Positions 3,962 to 24,647 of a stretch of 24,647 nucleotides of DNA are shown piece by piece; position 1 is the first letter of the stretch; the number at the start of each line of letters is the position of its first letter. The stretch spans positions 1 through 24,647 of IMG/VR virus record IMGVR_UViG_3300020188_000054; one strand, written 5' to 3'. This DNA comes from a virus. Made by a program: the position numbers and the translations under genes. Below the pieces are notes generated by a model. The model did not search any database. It was not told where the DNA came from and saw only the letters and a list, made by a program, of their open reading frames with translations.

Positions 3962-4424
3962 GAAAGTTCGTAAGCGCCGAAAGCCTATGACCGAAGAGCA
4001 ACGTGCGGCGGCCATAGAACGTCTTGCGAAAGCGCGAGCGGCTAAAAAGCCAGCACAGAACACTTCTATTCACGAGAGCATTCGTGACTTGCCAGAAGAT
4101 CATGATCTCCATCCTGATAAAGTGAAGGAATGGATCAAAGATTGGAAACTTCGCCTCAAAGGTATGCGACACTACGCAAACTCTAAAGAAGTAAAGGAAG
4201 TAGCAAAGTACTACGAGGTTGATGGCTACATTAAAAACATGCAACGCTATCTCGACTCTGGTGTCTGGCTAGATTTCTGGGCAGGTCCTGATCGAACACA
4301 GCGAGTCAATAATATCTGTGTTGTGCCTGCATATGATAAGAATGGTGAAATTAAACGTTCTTACGGTGTCTACTATCCAGATATAAACATGGTATGGGGA
4401 ATAGACGATGAACCTCGACTATAA
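3921..4424 (+). CDS. Conserved phage protein with basic N-terminus, 167 aa
   Basis: Starts at ATG 3921, overlapping the small gene before it by 41 bases. Residues 1-45 are extremely basic and helical (KKVRKRRKPMTEEQR, then ERLAKARAAKK), like a nucleic-acid-binding or nucleoprotein tail. Residues 60-115 form charged helices containing a WIKDWKLRLKGM segment, and the C-terminal part is beta-rich and aromatic (GVWLDFWAGPDR, SYGVYYPDINMVWGID). I recall similar KRxRKPMTEEQRAAA proteins in T4-like marine phages without known function. The stop lies 17 bases inside the next gene. DNA-binding is inference from charge only. Confidence 0.7.
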   Translation: MKRHRKNQPEPPVKKVRKRRKPMTEEQRAAAIERLAKARAAKKPAQNTSIHESIRDLPEDHDLHPDKVKEWIKDWKLRLKGMRHYANSKEVKEVAKYYEVDGYIKNMQRYLDSGVWLDFWAGPDRTQRVNNICVVPAYDKNGEIKRSYGVYYPDINMVWGIDDEPRL

Positions 4425-4851
4425 AGGCTGGAATCGAATCGGATTTACATGCAGTACATTTGATCTGCTTCACGCTGGACATATCACGATGCTCGAAGAA
4501 GCAAAGCGACAGTGTGATTATTTGATTGTAGGTTTGCAGAGTGATCCAACGATTGATAGACCAGACACAAAGAACAAGCCAGTCCAGACTCTCATTGAGA
4601 GACAGATTCAGTTAAGCGCAGTGAAGTATGTTGATGAGGTAATAGTTTACAATACAGAGCAAGACCTTGAAGACTTGCTATTGACATTACCTATCGCGGT
4701 GCGTATACTAGGTGAAGAATATCGAGATACTGATTTCACTGGCAAGCAGATATGTGAGAAAAGAAACATAGACTTGTACTTCAATAAACGGGACCACAGT
4801 TTCAGTAGTACAAGCCTACGTGCAAGAGTTGTTGAGAGTTCTAAGTCTTAA
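4408..4851 (+). CDS. Cytidylyltransferase-like nucleotidyltransferase (HxGH family)
   Basis: A 147-aa protein of the HIGH nucleotidyltransferase superfamily, closest in pattern to glycerol-3-phosphate/phosphoethanolamine cytidylyltransferases (TagD-like). GFTCSTFDLLHAGH puts the signature at H22-A-G-H25; GLQSDP and the late RDHSFSSTSLR (128-138, equivalent of the R-T-x-G-I-S-S/T-T motif) complete the active site. Such enzymes join CTP to a phosphorylated alcohol or sugar, making CDP-activated precursors for lipids, teichoic-type polymers or capsules. In this phage it may feed the glycosyltransferases. It overlaps the gene before it by 17 bases and converges on the minus-strand gene at 4841, overlapping it by 11 bases. 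Confidence 0.85.
   Translation: MNLDYKGWNRIGFTCSTFDLLHAGHITMLEEAKRQCDYLIVGLQSDPTIDRPDTKNKPVQTLIERQIQLSAVKYVDEVIVYNTEQDLEDLLLTLPIAVRILGEEYRDTDFTGKQICEKRNIDLYFNKRDHSFSSTSLRARVVESSKS
4681..4709 (+). promoter_or_regulatory. Sigma70-like promoter directed into a minus-strand gene
   Basis: TTGACA at 4681-4686, 17-base spacer, TATACT at 4704-4709, inside the cytidylyltransferase gene. Transcripts would run antisense through the gene at 4841-5113 and could reach hsp20. The match is strong, but its position makes a real role uncertain. Confidence 0.4.
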
Positions 4852-5113
4852 CGATCTCTTCGACGGAACAAACTTGTTTTTTAGAGAAGCGAATCTTAGT
4901 TCCTTCTTTGATGTATCTGCTTTTTACTTTGAATTGAGTAATGTCTGATACTTTGACAAGGCAGTTTGTTACGACTTCATACTCGTTACCTGTTTTGTCT
5001 TTGAGGACAATATGTTCTGGTGTAAATCGAACAACTGGTAGCAAAGTTTTAGTTGGCACTTCGCTGTATGCGAGTGATGGGATGAGCAATAGAGCTAATA
5101 AAATAGTTCTCAT
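4841..5113 (-). CDS. Secreted small protein, 90 aa
   Basis: Minus-strand gene with start ATG at 5113 preceded by a strong ribosome site (AGGAGAT, complement of 5121-5127, 7 bases upstream). The first 18 residues (MRTILLALLLIPSLAYSE) are a clear Sec signal peptide with likely cleavage after AYS, so the mature protein of about 72 residues acts in the periplasm or outside. The mature part looks like a small beta barrel (TPEHIVLKDKTGNEYEVV, then IKEGTKIRFSKKQVC) with two Cys that could form a disulfide. Family unknown. It is one of only three minus-strand genes here and shares the 5114-5334 gap with hsp20. The plus-strand frame over the same DNA lacks these features. Confidence 0.75.
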   Translation of the reverse strand: MRTILLALLLIPSLAYSEVPTKTLLPVVRFTPEHIVLKDKTGNEYEVVTNCLVKVSDITQFKVKSRYIKEGTKIRFSKKQVCSVEEIVKT

Positions 5114-6119: not shown

Positions 6120-6295
6120 AGATTAAAATTGAAATAGAAGCCTCTCCAGACGAAGTTCAAGACTTGTTTATTCCAAGTAGTAAACAGAAAGAATTCGCCG
6201 AGACTCTTTATAGAGCATACATTGATGCTATGTCTAAGACTGTATCTGGCGCAGTCAGTAAAGTTTTTAAGAAACGTTCTCGAGGCGAGTCATAA
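6116..6295 (+). CDS. Small conserved phage protein, 59 aa
   Basis: ATG 6116 overlaps the lipoprotein stop (ATGA). The 59-aa product begins with a beta-like MKIKIEIEASPDEVQDLF and continues as an amphipathic helix (EFAETLYRAYIDAMSK), ending in a basic tail (KKRSRGES). It has no signal peptide or membrane helix. I have seen similar short sequences in phages but know no function. It converges on the lysozyme gene, with the two 3' ends overlapping by 29 bases. Confidence 0.65.
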   Translation: MKIKIEIEASPDEVQDLFIPSSKQKEFAETLYRAYIDAMSKTVSGAVSKVFKKRSRGES

Positions 6296-6728
6296 GTCTT
6301 TCAGCACGATTGGTGACTTGTTTGTACCACAGAGAATCACGTCCTTCAGCGGCCGCTTTCTTCCAGTCATTACTGACAAGTGCCGTTCTCATTCTAACAA
6401 ACTTCGCCAGTCTCGTTCTGCCTAGATTGAACATCATGTTGACCAGTATCTCCTGGACTTCGGATGGGAAACGATCAAACCTTGGGCCGAATACAGCGTG
6501 ACAATCTCGGATAGATTGTCTGATGTCAGACTCGAATGCTTCATCGATTCTTTCTTCGGAAATTTTTGTGCCAACTGATAACCCGAATTCTGGGTCCGAT
6601 ACCGTAACGAGATGACCGATTCCAAAGGTGGGATGGCCGAGGTGGTCAAGATAGATTTCATTGACTTTTCCTTCATCAAAAATTAGAGCAGGCTTTACTC
6701 TATTGACTAGATCACTTTCTTCTTTCAT
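6267..6728 (-). CDS. e: T4-type lysozyme (GH24 endolysin)
   Basis: Minus-strand gene for a 153-aa muramidase that cleaves the beta-1,4 bond of peptidoglycan during lysis. With the start at 6728 (ATG after GGAGAAG, 10 bases upstream) the catalytic residues are E19 (DEG), D28 (IYLD) and T34 (PTFGIGH). The E-to-D gap of 9 and D-to-T gap of 6 equal those of T4 lysozyme (E11, D20, T26). Later blocks such as RFDRFPSEVQEILVNMMFNLG also match. A longer reading from 6794 would overlap the polymerase start and lacks a ribosome site. No signal peptide or SAR helix is seen, so a holin should be needed; none is adjacent. It is divergent from the polymerase gene. Confidence 0.93.
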   Translation of the reverse strand: MKEESDLVNRVKPALIFDEGKVNEIYLDHLGHPTFGIGHLVTVSDPEFGLSVGTKISEERIDEAFESDIRQSIRDCHAVFGPRFDRFPSEVQEILVNMMFNLGRTRLAKFVRMRTALVSNDWKKAAAEGRDSLWYKQVTNRAERLMTRLENVS

Positions 6729-6730
6729 GG

Positions 6731-6759
6731 TTGACTTTCTTCTCCATAACTTATATAAT
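6731..6759 (+). promoter_or_regulatory. Sigma70 promoter for DNA polymerase
   Basis: TTGACT at 6731-6736, 17-base spacer, TATAAT at 6754-6759. Predicted start near 6766, about 20 bases before the polymerase ATG at 6785. It fills the gap between the divergent lysozyme and polymerase genes. Confidence 0.8.
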
Positions 6760-6784
6760 GTTGAGATAACTGACAGAGGTTTGA

Positions 6785-9292
6785 ATGACATCATTTTACA
6801 CTAACGTATTTAATCTTGGTAATCATATTTATGTTCGCGGTTTCGATGAGAATGGCGAGCGAGTACAAAAACAGTACACTTATGAGCCATATCTTTTCGT
6901 ATCTGCTAAACAAGACACTGGCTATAGAGACATCCATGGACAGCCTGTTCGCCGTGTAGACTTCGACAACATACGAGAAGCCCGCGACTTCATCAAACAA
7001 TATACCGATGTCGGCGGCATGAATGTCTATGGCTATGATCGCTGGGCTTACACTTATATCTATGAGAAGTATCGCAACTGCAACTATGATACCTCTAAGA
7101 TAAACACTGTCTATATGGATATCGAGGTCGAGTCAGACGATGGCTTTCCTGAGCCAGATGTTGCCGAGAAGCGCGTGACTGCAATCGCACTGGTTCGAAA
7201 CAAAATGAAAGTTGTTCTCGGTCTCGGTGACTACGAACATGACGATAAGGACACTTACTATCTCAAGTGTGATGATGAGTTGATGTTGCTTCGCAAGTTT
7301 CTCAAAGTATGGGAGAACCTAGACGTAGACGTTCTCTCTGGCTGGAACACTGAGTTCTTCGATGTCCCTTATCTCTATAATCGAATCAATAAACTACTCG
7401 GCGAAGAACATGCGAACCGTATGTCGCCATGGAATAAAGTACGAGCCTACAGTGTTACGCAAGGCACAAAAGAACAGCGTGGTTATGAACTGTATGGCAT
7501 ATCACACTTAGATTACCTCGCAGTCTATAAGAAGTTCTGCCTAGCTCCTCGCGAATCATATCGTCTTGATTATATTGCTGAGTTAGAACTCGGTGAGAAC
7601 AAGATCGATTACTCCGAGTATGGTAACTTGTATACACTGCACCGCGAGAATCACCAAAAGTTTATCGAGTATAACATCAAAGATACAATACTGGTCCAAC
7701 GACTCGAAGAGCGCCTTGGCTATATCAATGTGGTATTTGCTCTGACATATGATTCTGGTTGCAACCACAATGATGGCTTATCGACTCTGACGATCTGGGA
7801 TACAATTATACACAACTATCTCATGGATCAGAACATCGTGATACCAGCGAAGAATAATGCGCGCCGTGATGCTCCTCAGATTGCTGGTGGCTTTGTAAAA
7901 GATCCACAAGTCGGTATGCATGACTGGGTAATGTCATTCGATTTGAACTCTCTGTACCCACACTTAATCATGCAGTACAATATATCACCAGATACTCACA
8001 TCGGCGAATCCAATGCTCTGACGGTAGATGATCTTCTGAATCAGTCAGTCGATACTGAATGGCTACAAGAGAAAGATATCACGATGACTGCCAACTCGCA
8101 GTTGTATCGAAAAGACTTCCGTGGCTTCTTACCTGAACTGATGCGTAAGATGTATGATGGTCGAGTCGAGTATAAAAAGAAGATGATTGCCGCACAGCAA
8201 AAGTATCAGACTAATCCAACACCTGAACTTGATCTCGAAATTACTCGCGCACACAACATGCAGTATGCGCTCAAGATTCTACTGAACTCTGCCTACGGCG
8301 CTGTTGCTAACAAATACTTCCGATGGTTCGAGCAGAAGAATGCTGAAGCAATCACACTGTCTGGTCAGTTGTCTATTCGCTGGATCGAGAAAGCAATCAA
8401 TCGATACATGAACAAACTACTCGGTACTGATTCGGACTATGTTGTTGCAGTTGATACCGACTCTGTTTATATCAACTTCGGTCCTATGGTCGAGCGCATC
8501 AAGCCTGATAATCCGATTGACTTTCTTGATAAAGTTGCGCAAGAAAAGATTGAGCCATTCATCGACAAATCGTACCGCGAACTCGCTGATTATATGAATG
8601 CGTATGAACAGAAGATGATCATGAAGCGCGAGAACATCGGTGATAAAGCTATCTGGACTGCCAAGAAACGATACATCATGAATGTCTGGGATAGTGAAGG
8701 TGTTCGATACAATGAACCGAAACTCAAGATGATGGGTATCGAAGCAATTCGTTCGAGTACTCCTGCCGCATGTCGTGATTACATTAAAGAAACACTCAAG
8801 ATGATCATGTCAACAAACGAAAACGAAGTGCAGGAATATATTGACAAGATTCGAACTGAGTTTAGGACTCTGCCGTTCGAGCGCATTGCCTTTCCTCGTG
8901 GCGTGAATCTAATGGCAAAGAAAAATATAAACGGTCGTGCGGTCACTGAGTCATATGCTGATGCTCAAACAATTTATAAGAAAGCCACACCGATTCAAGT
9001 CAAAGGTTCACTCATCTATAATCACTACATCAAGAAACTCGGTCTTGATAAAATCTATGAAGAAATAAAAGACGGCGAGAAGATTAAGTTCTGCTATCTA
9101 CTCATGCCGAATCCTGTTCAAGACAAAGTGATTGCCTGTCCGAGTGATCTGCCAAGTGATCTGAATCTAGATAAATATATAGACTATGACACTCAATTCC
9201 AGAAGGGCTATCTTGACCCGATTGAGATCATACTGAATACAATTGGTTGGAAGTCTGAGTCAATCGCTACTCTCGAAGACTTCTTCTCATAG
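6785..9292 (+). CDS. 43: Family B DNA polymerase (T4 gp43-like)
   Basis: The replicative DNA polymerase with 3'-5' proofreading, 835 aa (T4 gp43 is 898). The exonuclease domain shows Exo I D112/E114 (YMDIEVES), the same numbers as T4, Exo II NTEFFDVPYL with D193, and Exo III YNIKD with D300. The polymerase domain has motif A DLNSLYP (386-392), motif B K497...NSAYG (501-505) and motif C DTDS (557-560). All catalytic residues are intact. Start ATG 6785 follows AGAGG. The C-terminus ends in LEDFFS, the kind of short peptide T4-like polymerases use to bind the sliding clamp. It is followed after 14 bases by a small conserved gene. Its synonymous positions are more GC-rich than the neighbouring cargo genes. 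Confidence 0.98.
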   Translation: MTSFYTNVFNLGNHIYVRGFDENGERVQKQYTYEPYLFVSAKQDTGYRDIHGQPVRRVDFDNIREARDFIKQYTDVGGMNVYGYDRWAYTYIYEKYRNCNYDTSKINTVYMDIEVESDDGFPEPDVAEKRVTAIALVRNKMKVVLGLGDYEHDDKDTYYLKCDDELMLLRKFLKVWENLDVDVLSGWNTEFFDVPYLYNRINKLLGEEHANRMSPWNKVRAYSVTQGTKEQRGYELYGISHLDYLAVYKKFCLAPRESYRLDYIAELELGENKIDYSEYGNLYTLHRENHQKFIEYNIKDTILVQRLEERLGYINVVFALTYDSGCNHNDGLSTLTIWDTIIHNYLMDQNIVIPAKNNARRDAPQIAGGFVKDPQVGMHDWVMSFDLNSLYPHLIMQYNISPDTHIGESNALTVDDLLNQSVDTEWLQEKDITMTANSQLYRKDFRGFLPELMRKMYDGRVEYKKKMIAAQQKYQTNPTPELDLEITRAHNMQYALKILLNSAYGAVANKYFRWFEQKNAEAITLSGQLSIRWIEKAINRYMNKLLGTDSDYVVAVDTDSVYINFGPMVERIKPDNPIDFLDKVAQEKIEPFIDKSYRELADYMNAYEQKMIMKRENIGDKAIWTAKKRYIMNVWDSEGVRYNEPKLKMMGIEAIRSSTPAACRDYIKETLKMIMSTNENEVQEYIDKIRTEFRTLPFERIAFPRGVNLMAKKNINGRAVTESYADAQTIYKKATPIQVKGSLIYNHYIKKLGLDKIYEEIKDGEKIKFCYLLMPNPVQDKVIACPSDLPSDLNLDKYIDYDTQFQKGYLDPIEIILNTIGWKSESIATLEDFFS

Positions 9293-22880: not shown

Positions 22881-24248
22881 ATGGCCAGAGGTCTAACACA
22901 TCCTACTGCACATGTCGGTAAGGCTATTAAGCATTTAAAGACCAATAAAGAATACATCTATACGGGATTCGAGTTCAGTAGAGATGTCATGACATTGGTC
23001 GGAAATGTTGACAAGATCATTGATGAGATTGGCACTAAGAAGAAAACTGGTGCTATCTTTTATTTTAAAGAAAAGACTGGCAATAAGAAAGCGGGTGTAG
23101 TCTATTATGCTACTTCCGTTTCGTCTAGTTCCAATATCAATGCTGGCAAACTTGGTATGCAATACTCTGGCGCAAAGGGCGCGACTGAGAACCTAGGCAT
23201 TCAAGCAAGCAATTTAATCCTGAAAGGCACTTCCGAAAAATTGACAATCAATGGTCAAGAAGGTGTATCGTGTAAAACTTTCAGCGACCTCAAAACACTT
23301 AGAACATCTGTTATATCTTACATGAAAAGTTCGAATAAAGTCGGCAATCATATTGTTGATGCTGTCGATGAATGGTTTGCTAGTACATCACTGAAAAACT
23401 TCGATTGGCAAGACAAGTCATTTCAAGACTCTGAGATAAATGAACTTGGAAAATATCTCGGTGAAATCATCATTGGTGCTGTCGCACTCAAGAATAAATC
23501 TTCACTGATATCGCAAAATCCATTCAAGGGAAAAGCAAAAAAGTTTATTGTACCCGATGATCCTTCCTTCTCTGGTGTTGACTCTGCTGTAATGTTGGAC
23601 GATGGCACACTTGTTCCTATTTCTTCAAAAGCAGGAGTAGGCGCTAAAGCGTCTATCTTCACCAACTTCTTGCCGAAAGTAATCAACAAAACAAATCTAC
23701 CCGCAAGCGTGATTAAAGATTTAGTTGATTCTGCAAAGAAAGCAAATATCACAAAAGCGAAACTCGATGCAAAGCAAGGATCAAAAGACATTGTATATGA
23801 ATACGGCGTGAGAAAGATTTTAGGACTGAAGCAGTCACAGGTAAATGATCCATATGCAGTGTACACTGAGATACGTCAAGGTTCACTGAAAGGAAATCTG
23901 ACAGATTTTTCTGCGCCTACATTGAAAGTAATATCAGCGATTGCAAAGCATCCAGATATACCGCAGAATGTAAAAGACGCACTGCCATTATCAGTCACCT
24001 CTGCATTCAATCGTGAAATCGCAAGAAGACTAAATGAAGATTCTGTATCACAAGACATCGTTGCTAATATCCTTGCAGGCAAGAATTTTTATCAAGCAAA
24101 TTTAGACCTAAATAAATGGAAGAAAGGCGAAGTTTACTTTAAACTTTTACTGTCTGGTAATGCGAAGACATCTTTCATTGGAAGTAAAGCGGCGATCAAT
24201 GACATTGATGCTAAACAAGGTCTAGTAAATTACGAGTTGAAATATTAA
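22881..24248 (+). CDS. Late-expressed protein of unknown function with possible nuclease-like motif, 455 aa
   Basis: ATG 22881 with GGAG upstream, under an exact late promoter. The N-terminal half is beta-rich (TGAIFYFKEKTGNKKAGVVY) and the C-terminal half helical (TKAKLDAKQGSKDIVYEY). Near residues 234-250, DSAVMLDDGTLVPISSK resembles the core of PD-(D/E)XK nucleases: Asp at the end of one strand, then a hydrophobic strand ending in x-x-K, with Ser248 where Glu is usual, and E188 or E195 on the preceding helix. This is a motif-level guess, not a family assignment. No signal peptide or membrane helix. The stop overlaps the start of the next gene (TAATG), so the two proteins are made together late in infection. 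Confidence 0.7.
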   Translation: MARGLTHPTAHVGKAIKHLKTNKEYIYTGFEFSRDVMTLVGNVDKIIDEIGTKKKTGAIFYFKEKTGNKKAGVVYYATSVSSSSNINAGKLGMQYSGAKGATENLGIQASNLILKGTSEKLTINGQEGVSCKTFSDLKTLRTSVISYMKSSNKVGNHIVDAVDEWFASTSLKNFDWQDKSFQDSEINELGKYLGEIIIGAVALKNKSSLISQNPFKGKAKKFIVPDDPSFSGVDSAVMLDDGTLVPISSKAGVGAKASIFTNFLPKVINKTNLPASVIKDLVDSAKKANITKAKLDAKQGSKDIVYEYGVRKILGLKQSQVNDPYAVYTEIRQGSLKGNLTDFSAPTLKVISAIAKHPDIPQNVKDALPLSVTSAFNREIARRLNEDSVSQDIVANILAGKNFYQANLDLNKWKKGEVYFKLLLSGNAKTSFIGSKAAINDIDAKQGLVNYELKY

Positions 24249-24647
24249 TGAAAAATTTTAATCAGTTTCTTATTGAACAAAAAAATACTCATATGGAACA
24301 CGTTGAGGATTTGATCTTCAACGAAGGTGTCGATGGCACACGAAAAGCAATTAACTTTCTGCGTGATCTTAGAGACATGCTGGCTGGACATAATAAAAGC
24401 AAGATATCTCGAACTGTGAAATGGGATGGTGCGCCTGCTGTGTTTGTGGGCATCGATCCAAGTGACGGCAAGTTTTTTGTCGCGAAGAAAGGCGTTTTTA
24501 ACAAAAATCCAAAGGTTTATAAGACTCCTGCTGATGTAAAAGCAGATACGTCAGGCGACTTACAGAAAAAGCTATTGATAGCACTGAGTGAGTTTTCGAA
24601 GTTAGGTATTAAGTCTGGTGTATATCAAGGCGATCTAATGTTCACGA
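24248..24647 (+). CDS. Capsid-targeted nucleotidyltransferase-like protein (3' truncated)
   Basis: ATG 24248 overlaps the previous stop; 133 codons are visible before the window ends. The N-terminus MKNFNQFLIE closely follows the T4 capsid-targeting sequence (MKTYQEFIAE), including the Phe spacing and a L-x-E site fitting the gp21 prohead protease. The following HMEHVEDLIFNEGVDG and AINFLRDLRDML are conserved in a cyanophage family I recall (possibly DUF6267). VKWDGAPAVF puts a KxDG motif at K58-G61, like the nucleotidyl-lysine motif of DNA/RNA ligases; AKKGVF (79-84) and GVYQGDLMF (124-132) fit motifs Ia and III. Prediction: an adenylyl- or guanylyltransferase-fold protein packaged in the head. 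Later motifs lie outside the window. Confidence 0.75.
   Translation, partial: MKNFNQFLIEQKNTHMEHVEDLIFNEGVDGTRKAINFLRDLRDMLAGHNKSKISRTVKWDGAPAVFVGIDPSDGKFFVAKKGVFNKNPKVYKTPADVKADTSGDLQKKLLIALSEFSKLGIKSGVYQGDLMFT

Follow-up and report, generated by a model that had tools for sequence, protein, structure and literature searches.

DUF6267, a phage protein family with a predicted ligase-like fold and, in many members, a capsid-targeting-like tag of the T4 type

Introduction

The sequence that directs the T4 internal protein IPIII is short. The available text of a T4 review (PMC9026906) describes its first 10 residues as alone required, with targeting depending mainly on residues 4 and 7 and processing on residues 8 and 10. 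Phage RNA ligases are described elsewhere as repairing tRNAs cut by host defences, and the available text of the two papers concerned (PMC9503650, PMC7824862) makes no mention of the DUF6267 protein family discussed here. These two subjects may meet in the final gene of a virus record of 24,647 bases, IMG/VR record IMGVR_UViG_3300020188_000054, the whole of which is referred to below as the window. The gene starts at position 24248 on the + strand and stays open for 133 codons to the end of the record. We propose, at a probability of about 0.6, that it encodes a very divergent covalent nucleotidyltransferase of the RNA/DNA-ligase fold which carries a T4-type capsid-targeting sequence and would be packaged and injected, probably to join RNA ends. 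No T4 cargo protein is known to have a ligase fold.

Family assignment

The gene fragment (24248..24646, + strand) is the 5' part of a DUF6267 gene and holds 133 of about 409 codons, the rest being cut off by the record end. Its translation matches PF19782 (DUF6267) in Pfam at E 1.6e-44 over profile positions 1-119 of 376, with 153.2 bits against a curated cut-off of 27, and matches phrog_455 at E 1.3e-44; all 61 full-length relatives of the alignment described below (A1) match as well. Judged by these profile matches, the open reading frame (ORF) is a real gene of an uncharacterised phage family. The DUF6267 description gives the function as unknown and mentions neither a ligase fold nor a packaging tag, and a search of the open-access literature found no paper on the family.

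Relatives were detected in 464 of 50,697 phage records (E<=1e-3), mostly from cyanophages, with others from Methylophilales, Pelagibacter, Stenotrophomonas and a few further phages. At least 599 IMG/VR stretches encode a relative, of which the best 80 were retained; genes with both ends among these 80 encode about 394-414 amino acids (aa), except for a frame of 1379 aa in the locus L080. A compact form of about 301-324 aa, in which part of the middle is absent, occurs in cyanophages such as S-SM1. Closed frames of 390-430 aa gave 148 proteins, reduced to 66 by near-duplicate removal, and alignment A1 holds 61 of these, five from named phage records being excluded. A set of 72 sequences combined long relatives with five compact relatives and the S-SZBM1 homologue. 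Both the 148 and the 72 sequences were selected with a K-x-[DE]-G pattern.

Conserved motifs

An initial annotation of the window had claimed KWDG at residues 58-61 and GDLMF about 65 residues later, in the order of motifs I and III of ligases and capping enzymes. Translation of 24248-24647, which begins MKNFNQFLIE, places KWDG at residues 58-61 (24419..24430, + strand) and GDLMF at 128-132; the distance from K58 to D129 is 71 residues rather than about 65, and the motif order holds, all 72 aligned members sharing K58, D60, G61 and D129. K58 of motif I is the predicted nucleotide-accepting lysine, and W59 beside it is kept in 70 of 72. Because the 72 sequences had been chosen by the K-x-[DE]-G pattern, the aligned position was recounted without that filter: three of 200 loci did not align there, and the other 197 carried KWDG in 196 cases and KFDG in one.

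The QGDLMF stretch (24626..24643, + strand) resembles motif III, with Q127 and D129 present in 72 of 72 and G128 in 68 of 72. In the model of a close relative, L003, it forms a strand (residues 125-133), within which the acidic residue of motif III is D129, a D and not an E. AKKGVF (24485..24502, + strand), in which all 72 share K81 and F84, resembles motif Ia. The remainder of the gene was read from full-length relatives of about 409 aa. These contain a strand with invariant H179-T180-x-Y182 near the place expected for motif IIIa, with a sequence not typical of that motif, and motif IV is present as E373-G374 in 72 of 72. In motif V, the first lysine, K387, is found in 72 of 72, and residue 389 is V in 69 of them and I in three, where T4 Rnl2 has K225-C-K227; R391 and K344 are candidates for the role of the missing second lysine. 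The residues identical in all 72 members are thus K58, D60, G61, K81, D129, H179, T180, E373, G374, K387 and R391. Motifs IV and V, which the initial annotation had proposed seeking in the rest of the gene, were found in full and by half, respectively. As read from the aligned sequences, the truncated ORF begins a complete order of motifs I, III and IV, and motif V retains its first lysine only.

The Naegleria RNA ligase (Rnl), T4 Rnl2, T4 Rnl1 and TbREL1 have in common with DUF6267 the predicted fold described below and the motif order I, III, IV, V. The 14 residues from E373 to K387 in the long form equal the distance from E312 to K326 in the Naegleria ligase, two residues named in entry titles that belong to its motifs IV and V. 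The corresponding spacing is 12 in the compact form (E286-K298) and 21 in T4 Rnl2 (E204-K225). T4 Rnl2 differs further in having E99 in motif III where DUF6267 has D, in having K-x-K rather than K-x-V/I in motif V, and in showing no detectable sequence-profile similarity to DUF6267. The V or I in place of the second motif V lysine in 72 of 72, together with the D in motif III, would suit a packaged but catalytically degenerate protein of ligase fold that attaches to nucleic acid or to a host factor and transfers no nucleotide. We consider this quite improbable, as K58, D60, G61, K81, D129, E373, K387 and R391 stay the same in all 72 sequences, in full-length and compact forms alike, which would be unusual for a dead enzyme.

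Predicted fold

The AlphaFold2 model of L003 (predicted local distance difference test, pLDDT, 85.1; predicted template modelling score, pTM, 0.74) has a core rich in strands and broken by a helical segment, which in this long form occupies about 130 residues ahead of motif IV; residues 1-15 have pLDDT <50. A model of the compact relative L205 reached pLDDT 86.3 and pTM 0.82. When the L003 model was aligned by VIA-align to chains within the Foldseek top 1000 for that model, ligases took ranks 1-23, with 6vt1_A as the best (Z 6.0, root-mean-square deviation (rmsd) 4.5, 186 residues); BiP, the highest row with an unrelated protein, reached Z 4.5 over 82 residues. For L205, all of the best 50 rows listed were ligases by entry title, with no unrelated fold and no capping enzyme. 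The best was again 6vt1_A, the Naegleria RNA ligase (Z 8.8, rmsd 3.8, 183 residues); T4 Rnl2 1s68 gave Z 7.5 (rmsd 4.2, 174 residues), TbREL1 1xdn Z 7.4 (rmsd 4.1, 183 residues), T4 Rnl1 2c5u_A Z 7.3 (rmsd 4.0, 161 residues) and human DNA ligase I Z 6.0 and below, where Z <8 may reflect a common arrangement and the comparison is limited to the chains that Foldseek ranked highest. The comparison with T4 RNA ligase proposed in the initial annotation thus returned matches to both T4 enzymes, and the models support the nucleotidyltransferase fold that it had claimed. From these predicted structures, DUF6267 very probably has the nucleotidyltransferase (ligase/capping) fold.

Foldseek searches of the Protein Data Bank (PDB) with L205 gave ligases or capping enzymes throughout ranks 1-17 (best E 0.026). 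With L003, no ligase was among the best 50 of 166 rows, in which helical proteins were prominent. In a viral library, ranks 1-15 for L003 were mostly uncharacterised or cytidyltransferase-named phage proteins, and an RNA ligase A (rank 16), ICP-46 (rank 20) and an RNA ligase (rank 31) were weak matches, at E 0.08 to 1.1.

The capping enzymes in the Foldseek results for the compact model would fit an enzyme that is not an end-joining ligase, namely a capping or AMP/GMP-transfer nucleotidyltransferase which acts on an RNA 5' end, a small molecule or a protein as the partner of a fused or adjacent NMNAT/cytidylyltransferase-like protein. DUF6267 and a cytidylyltransferase are apparently fused in the 1379-aa frame of L080 and in the profile phrog_455, and the name, length and structural match of a 591-aa S-PM2 protein suggest the same fusion. 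We regard this alternative as rather unlikely: the best 50 VIA rows for the compact model are ligases, with RNA ligases first and no capping enzyme, and the adjacency of genes is no proof of a common pathway.

N-terminal tag

The initial annotation had likened MKNFNQFLIE to the T4 targeting peptide, and the likeness is borne out by the T4 record, in which IPIII begins MKTYQEFIAE. The window tag (24248..24277, + strand), with a predicted cut after E10, has the same length and agrees with IPIII at positions 4, 7, 8 and 10, having aromatic F4 and F7, aliphatic L8, and E10. The starts of T4 IPI and Alt fit the tag pattern less closely than that of IPIII.

The anchored tag pattern was matched by 62 of 68 full-length homologues (L002-L081). 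Of the six exceptions, one has its start two residues further upstream, another carries I at position 7, and the remaining four have script-placed starts inside the core. The segment ahead of the conserved core is 11 residues long in 41 of the 68 and 10 residues long in 22, all of which fit the pattern. Positions were counted on the 41 with the 11-residue segment, among which there are 33 distinct tags. All 33 have F or L at position 4, an aliphatic residue (L, I, V or M) at position 8 and E at position 10; the residue at position 7 is F, Y or H in 32 and I in one, and positions 2, 3, 5, 6 and 9 are variable. On these counts the resemblance of the tag exceeds chance. The cultured Methylophilales phage Melnitz also carries a tagged DUF6267.

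The conserved core starts directly after the tag (QKNTHMEHVED and following, 24278..24312, + strand). The untagged S-SZBM1 homologue starts with MAKNTHLEHLEDD and that of S-CRM01 with MAKDGKNVHLEHLEDD, so that a cut after E10, leaving QKNTHMEHVED, would put the mature N-terminus near the untagged start. The S-SM1 type differs, with about 20 untagged residues ahead of NTHLEH. In a midpoint-rooted quick tree of the 72 sequences, 49 of the 50 tagged sequences form one group with L083, and L101 sits among the Pelagibacter type. The 22 of 72 without a pattern match comprise five compact forms, S-CRM01, S-SZBM1, 14 of the Pelagibacter type and L083, in which a tag-like segment begins a few residues later; the Pelagibacter-type N-termini are short and mostly have L-x-E before the core. 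With this many homologues untagged, the core function therefore needs no packaging everywhere.

The S-CRM01, S-SM1 and S-SZBM1 homologues, all untagged, adjoin replication genes, and the S-SZBM1 protein (S-SZBM1_141) is absent from the 30 virion proteins detected in that phage. These observations would suit a ligase-fold enzyme active in the cytoplasm during replication, with an N-terminal segment that is no packaging signal. Such a role would leave it unexplained that conservation in the tagged clade falls on precisely the four residues important in T4 IPIII and that the tag also stands on unrelated neighbours: on the upstream gene in 21 of 62 loci with an upstream gene of at least 80 aa (L002-L081, near-duplicate loci included), and, in the same loci, on 31 of the 466 further + strand ORFs that reach 80 aa, against 0.8 expected by codon shuffling, where the 466 include upstream genes not overlapping DUF6267. 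Tagged proteins have also been detected in S-CREM2 virions, and we consider the purely cytoplasmic role unlikely.

A protease able to process the tag would be expected in phages that use it as T4 does. The prohead protease PF03420 (Peptidase_S77) was found in three of four relatives' records, the record without it being 94 kb long, and a head maturation protease is annotated in Phage C48C1. The gp21-type protease of the T4 system is thus found in records of DUF6267 relatives too, and the packaging of DUF6267 itself is a prediction here.

Tagged proteins in virions

For S-CREM2, 52 virion proteins are listed in the available text of PMC10665884. Five of the six coding sequences with an anchored tag are among them, compared with 52 of 219 overall (Fisher p 0.003, a value that is not blind, as the N-termini of detected proteins were known before the pattern was run). 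The five comprise two hypothetical proteins, a SAM hydrolase, a kinase and a cytidylyltransferase; when a match at any place within the first 35 residues was accepted, 7 of 10 proteins were detected, including a Cas9-like protein. In the SAM hydrolase (gp6) and the kinase (gp14) the tag stands at the very N-terminus, and in the virion-listed gp12, annotated as Cas9/Csn1 (L210 7704-10313, - strand), PLRFASFMAEA lies about 15 residues from the N-terminus. For S-SZBM1, the available text of PMC9146016 places one of three tagged proteins in the virion, against 30 of 218 overall (p 0.36, not significant); the undetected two are 105 and 165 aa long. S-SZBM1_191 and _192 (L248 22311-23125), small tagged proteins encoded near the terminase genes and outside the virion list, are candidates for missed internal proteins. 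The tag pattern occurred six times in S-CREM2 (mean 0.33 in shuffled sequences) and three times in S-SZBM1 (mean 0.36), counts reached in 0 and 1 of 500 shuffles, respectively.

A cytidylyltransferase/NMNAT that is a neighbour of DUF6267 in several phages carries the tag, as read from its sequence. The tagged enzyme is reported in virions of S-CREM2 (PMC10665884), S-SZBM1 (PMC9146016), S-SM1 (PMC3037559) and S-SCSM1 (PMC9602691), in each case according to the available text. For S-CREM1, the available text of PMC9964418 gives 14 detected proteins and names no NMNAT among them, though its map legend has one. A kinase was found in S-CRM01 virions according to the accessible part of the S-CREM2 paper (PMC10665884), and the S-CRM01 kinase begins MISFDQFLSEK. 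Such lists may include passengers, because the S-SCSM1 record labels a translational repressor as a virion protein. The virion enzymes of cyanophages S-CREM2, S-SZBM1 and S-SCSM1 (NMNAT/cytidylyltransferase, kinase, SAM hydrolase and Cas9-like protein) have a tag of the same kind as DUF6267; they were detected by mass spectrometry, whereas packaging of DUF6267 is predicted from its sequence.

For DUF6267 itself, a search for direct evidence from virions found none. A motif search found no DUF6267 among the 219 annotated proteins of S-CREM2 or in a 50-kb stretch of S-SCSM1, and the S-SM1 homologue, T4-GC71, did not come up when the main text of PMC3037559 was searched for it. No virion proteome was found in the available text of the DLP6 paper. 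An open-access search for cyanophage capsid targeting or prohead propeptides returned only the T4 review PMC9026906, in the available text of which the mention of cyanophages is a reference title.

Gene neighborhood

The upstream partner gene (22881..24248, + strand) encodes 455 aa with no Pfam match, and its stop overlaps the DUF6267 start codon by one base. This upstream slot is variable: 119 slot proteins fell into 18 groups at E<1e-4, the largest of 85. The window protein matched none of the other 118 at that threshold, and its best score against the S-SCSM1 virion protein, E 0.16, indicates no real similarity. The protein that fills the slot in L003 has a relative in SSCSM1_90 (24% over 370 aa, E 1e-10), which is annotated as a virion protein. 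A nuclease role for the upstream neighbour was considered, and no Pfam match above cut-off was obtained in the 7 and 10 proteins tried; a loose D...S-x-K pattern in eight of eight upstream proteins tried was devised after inspection and is not evidence for a nuclease. In a slot group of six (L013 type, with GSLTIFDIDDTLFHT near the start), the best Pfam match of L013 is DUF2608 (E 0.0014, below cut-off); these are presumably HAD phosphatases by their appearance.

In Phage C48C1, 8 of 453 ORFs are tagged, and six of the eight, DUF6267 itself included, lie within 57.3-68.4 kb. The window has two tag matches, DUF6267 and a frame of 94 aa on the opposite strand near 600. An upstream in-frame start of the C48C1 cytidyltransferase (L251 13448-13514, equal to C48C1 63448-63514) yields the tag MIKNFSQYLLEEE, and from this reading the annotated start (63514) is probably 66 bases too late. 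By eye, DUF6267 is continuous in the 1379-aa frame of L080 (4998-9134) with a part resembling a cytidylyltransferase and with additional regions, and a second stretch that resembles the tag lies where they join. Also by eye, L003 has a NifU-like gene between the slot gene and DUF6267 (4628-5014) and sulfotransferase-like and glycosyltransferase-like genes between DUF6267 and the cytidylyltransferase (6230-7613). The window contains a small cytidylyltransferase-like gene (4408-4851; PF01467, E 4.3e-14), distinct from the larger one downstream of DUF6267 in relatives, a fatty acid desaturase gene (927-1694; PF00487, E 1.1e-17) and a capsular polysaccharide synthesis/DXD sugar transferase gene (1664-2638; PF05704, E 6.7e-18).

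Discussion

Several results weigh against reading DUF6267 as a packaged, ligase-like enzyme. Foldseek gave no PDB match at E<=0.001 for the L003 or the L205 model. A sequence-profile search of the PDB returned five matches, none of them a ligase; no ligase was among the best 25 of 69 Pfam families listed for 61 members; and hhalign against a profile of T4 Rnl2 and 20 relatives gave probabilities of 0.33 and 0.70%. To these are added the missing second lysine of motif V, the 22 of 72 homologues without the tag pattern, the S-CREM2 test that was not blind, the S-SZBM1 proportion that was not significant and the absence of NMNAT from the proteins named for S-CREM1. A literature search turned up no enzyme assay, nor any virion proteome from a phage whose DUF6267 carries the tag. 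We speak of a very divergent branch because the sequence-profile searches listed no ligase; as no relation was detected by sequence alone, the family is therefore called ligase-like and is not assigned to a named ligase family.

The head packaging claimed in the initial annotation draws indirect support from the conservation of the tag, the protease genes of relatives and the tagged proteins in virions of other phages, and we consider it likely that the tagged form of DUF6267 is packaged. We infer the following course of packaging, cutting, injection and catalysis. The protein, tagged by its first 10 residues, would be drawn into the prohead core, where a prohead protease of the T4 gp21 type would cut after E10 to give a mature N-terminus of QKNTHMEHVED. 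The mature enzyme would remain in the head with the DNA and enter the host at infection. K58 would then accept a nucleotide, probably AMP from ATP, and pass it to a nucleic-acid 5' end. The most likely target would be RNA, for example a tRNA cleaved by host defence, or nucleic acid with nicks, and sealing would precede the expression of phage genes. That the reaction is the joining of RNA ends is the less secure part of this proposal, at slightly under an even chance.

Taken as a whole, this would make the protein a new type of cargo for an established packaging system, and a divergent branch of a fold that is itself known. More tentatively still, T4-like phages outside the T-evens may possess a cargo island of a variable upstream gene, DUF6267 and an NMNAT-like enzyme, several of them with a portable tag, that would serve as a ready-made nucleic-acid repair or counter-defence kit delivered with the DNA; one and the same enzyme would gain or lose the tag in the course of evolution. 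End joining by an injected enzyme would come ahead of phage gene expression, at the time when host nucleases and defences that cut tRNA attack.

In their available text, the authors of two cyanophage virion studies do not decide whether some non-structural proteins are cargo or purification leftovers (PMC10665884, PMC9602691), and the tag is a possible means to sort one from the other. It offers a sequence rule for phage proteins that may ride in the head and, for a family present in 464 of 50,697 phage records, the proposal provides a first testable function. If the cargo island is real, tags read from genomes would amount to a list of the proteins that a very large group of environmental phages injects.

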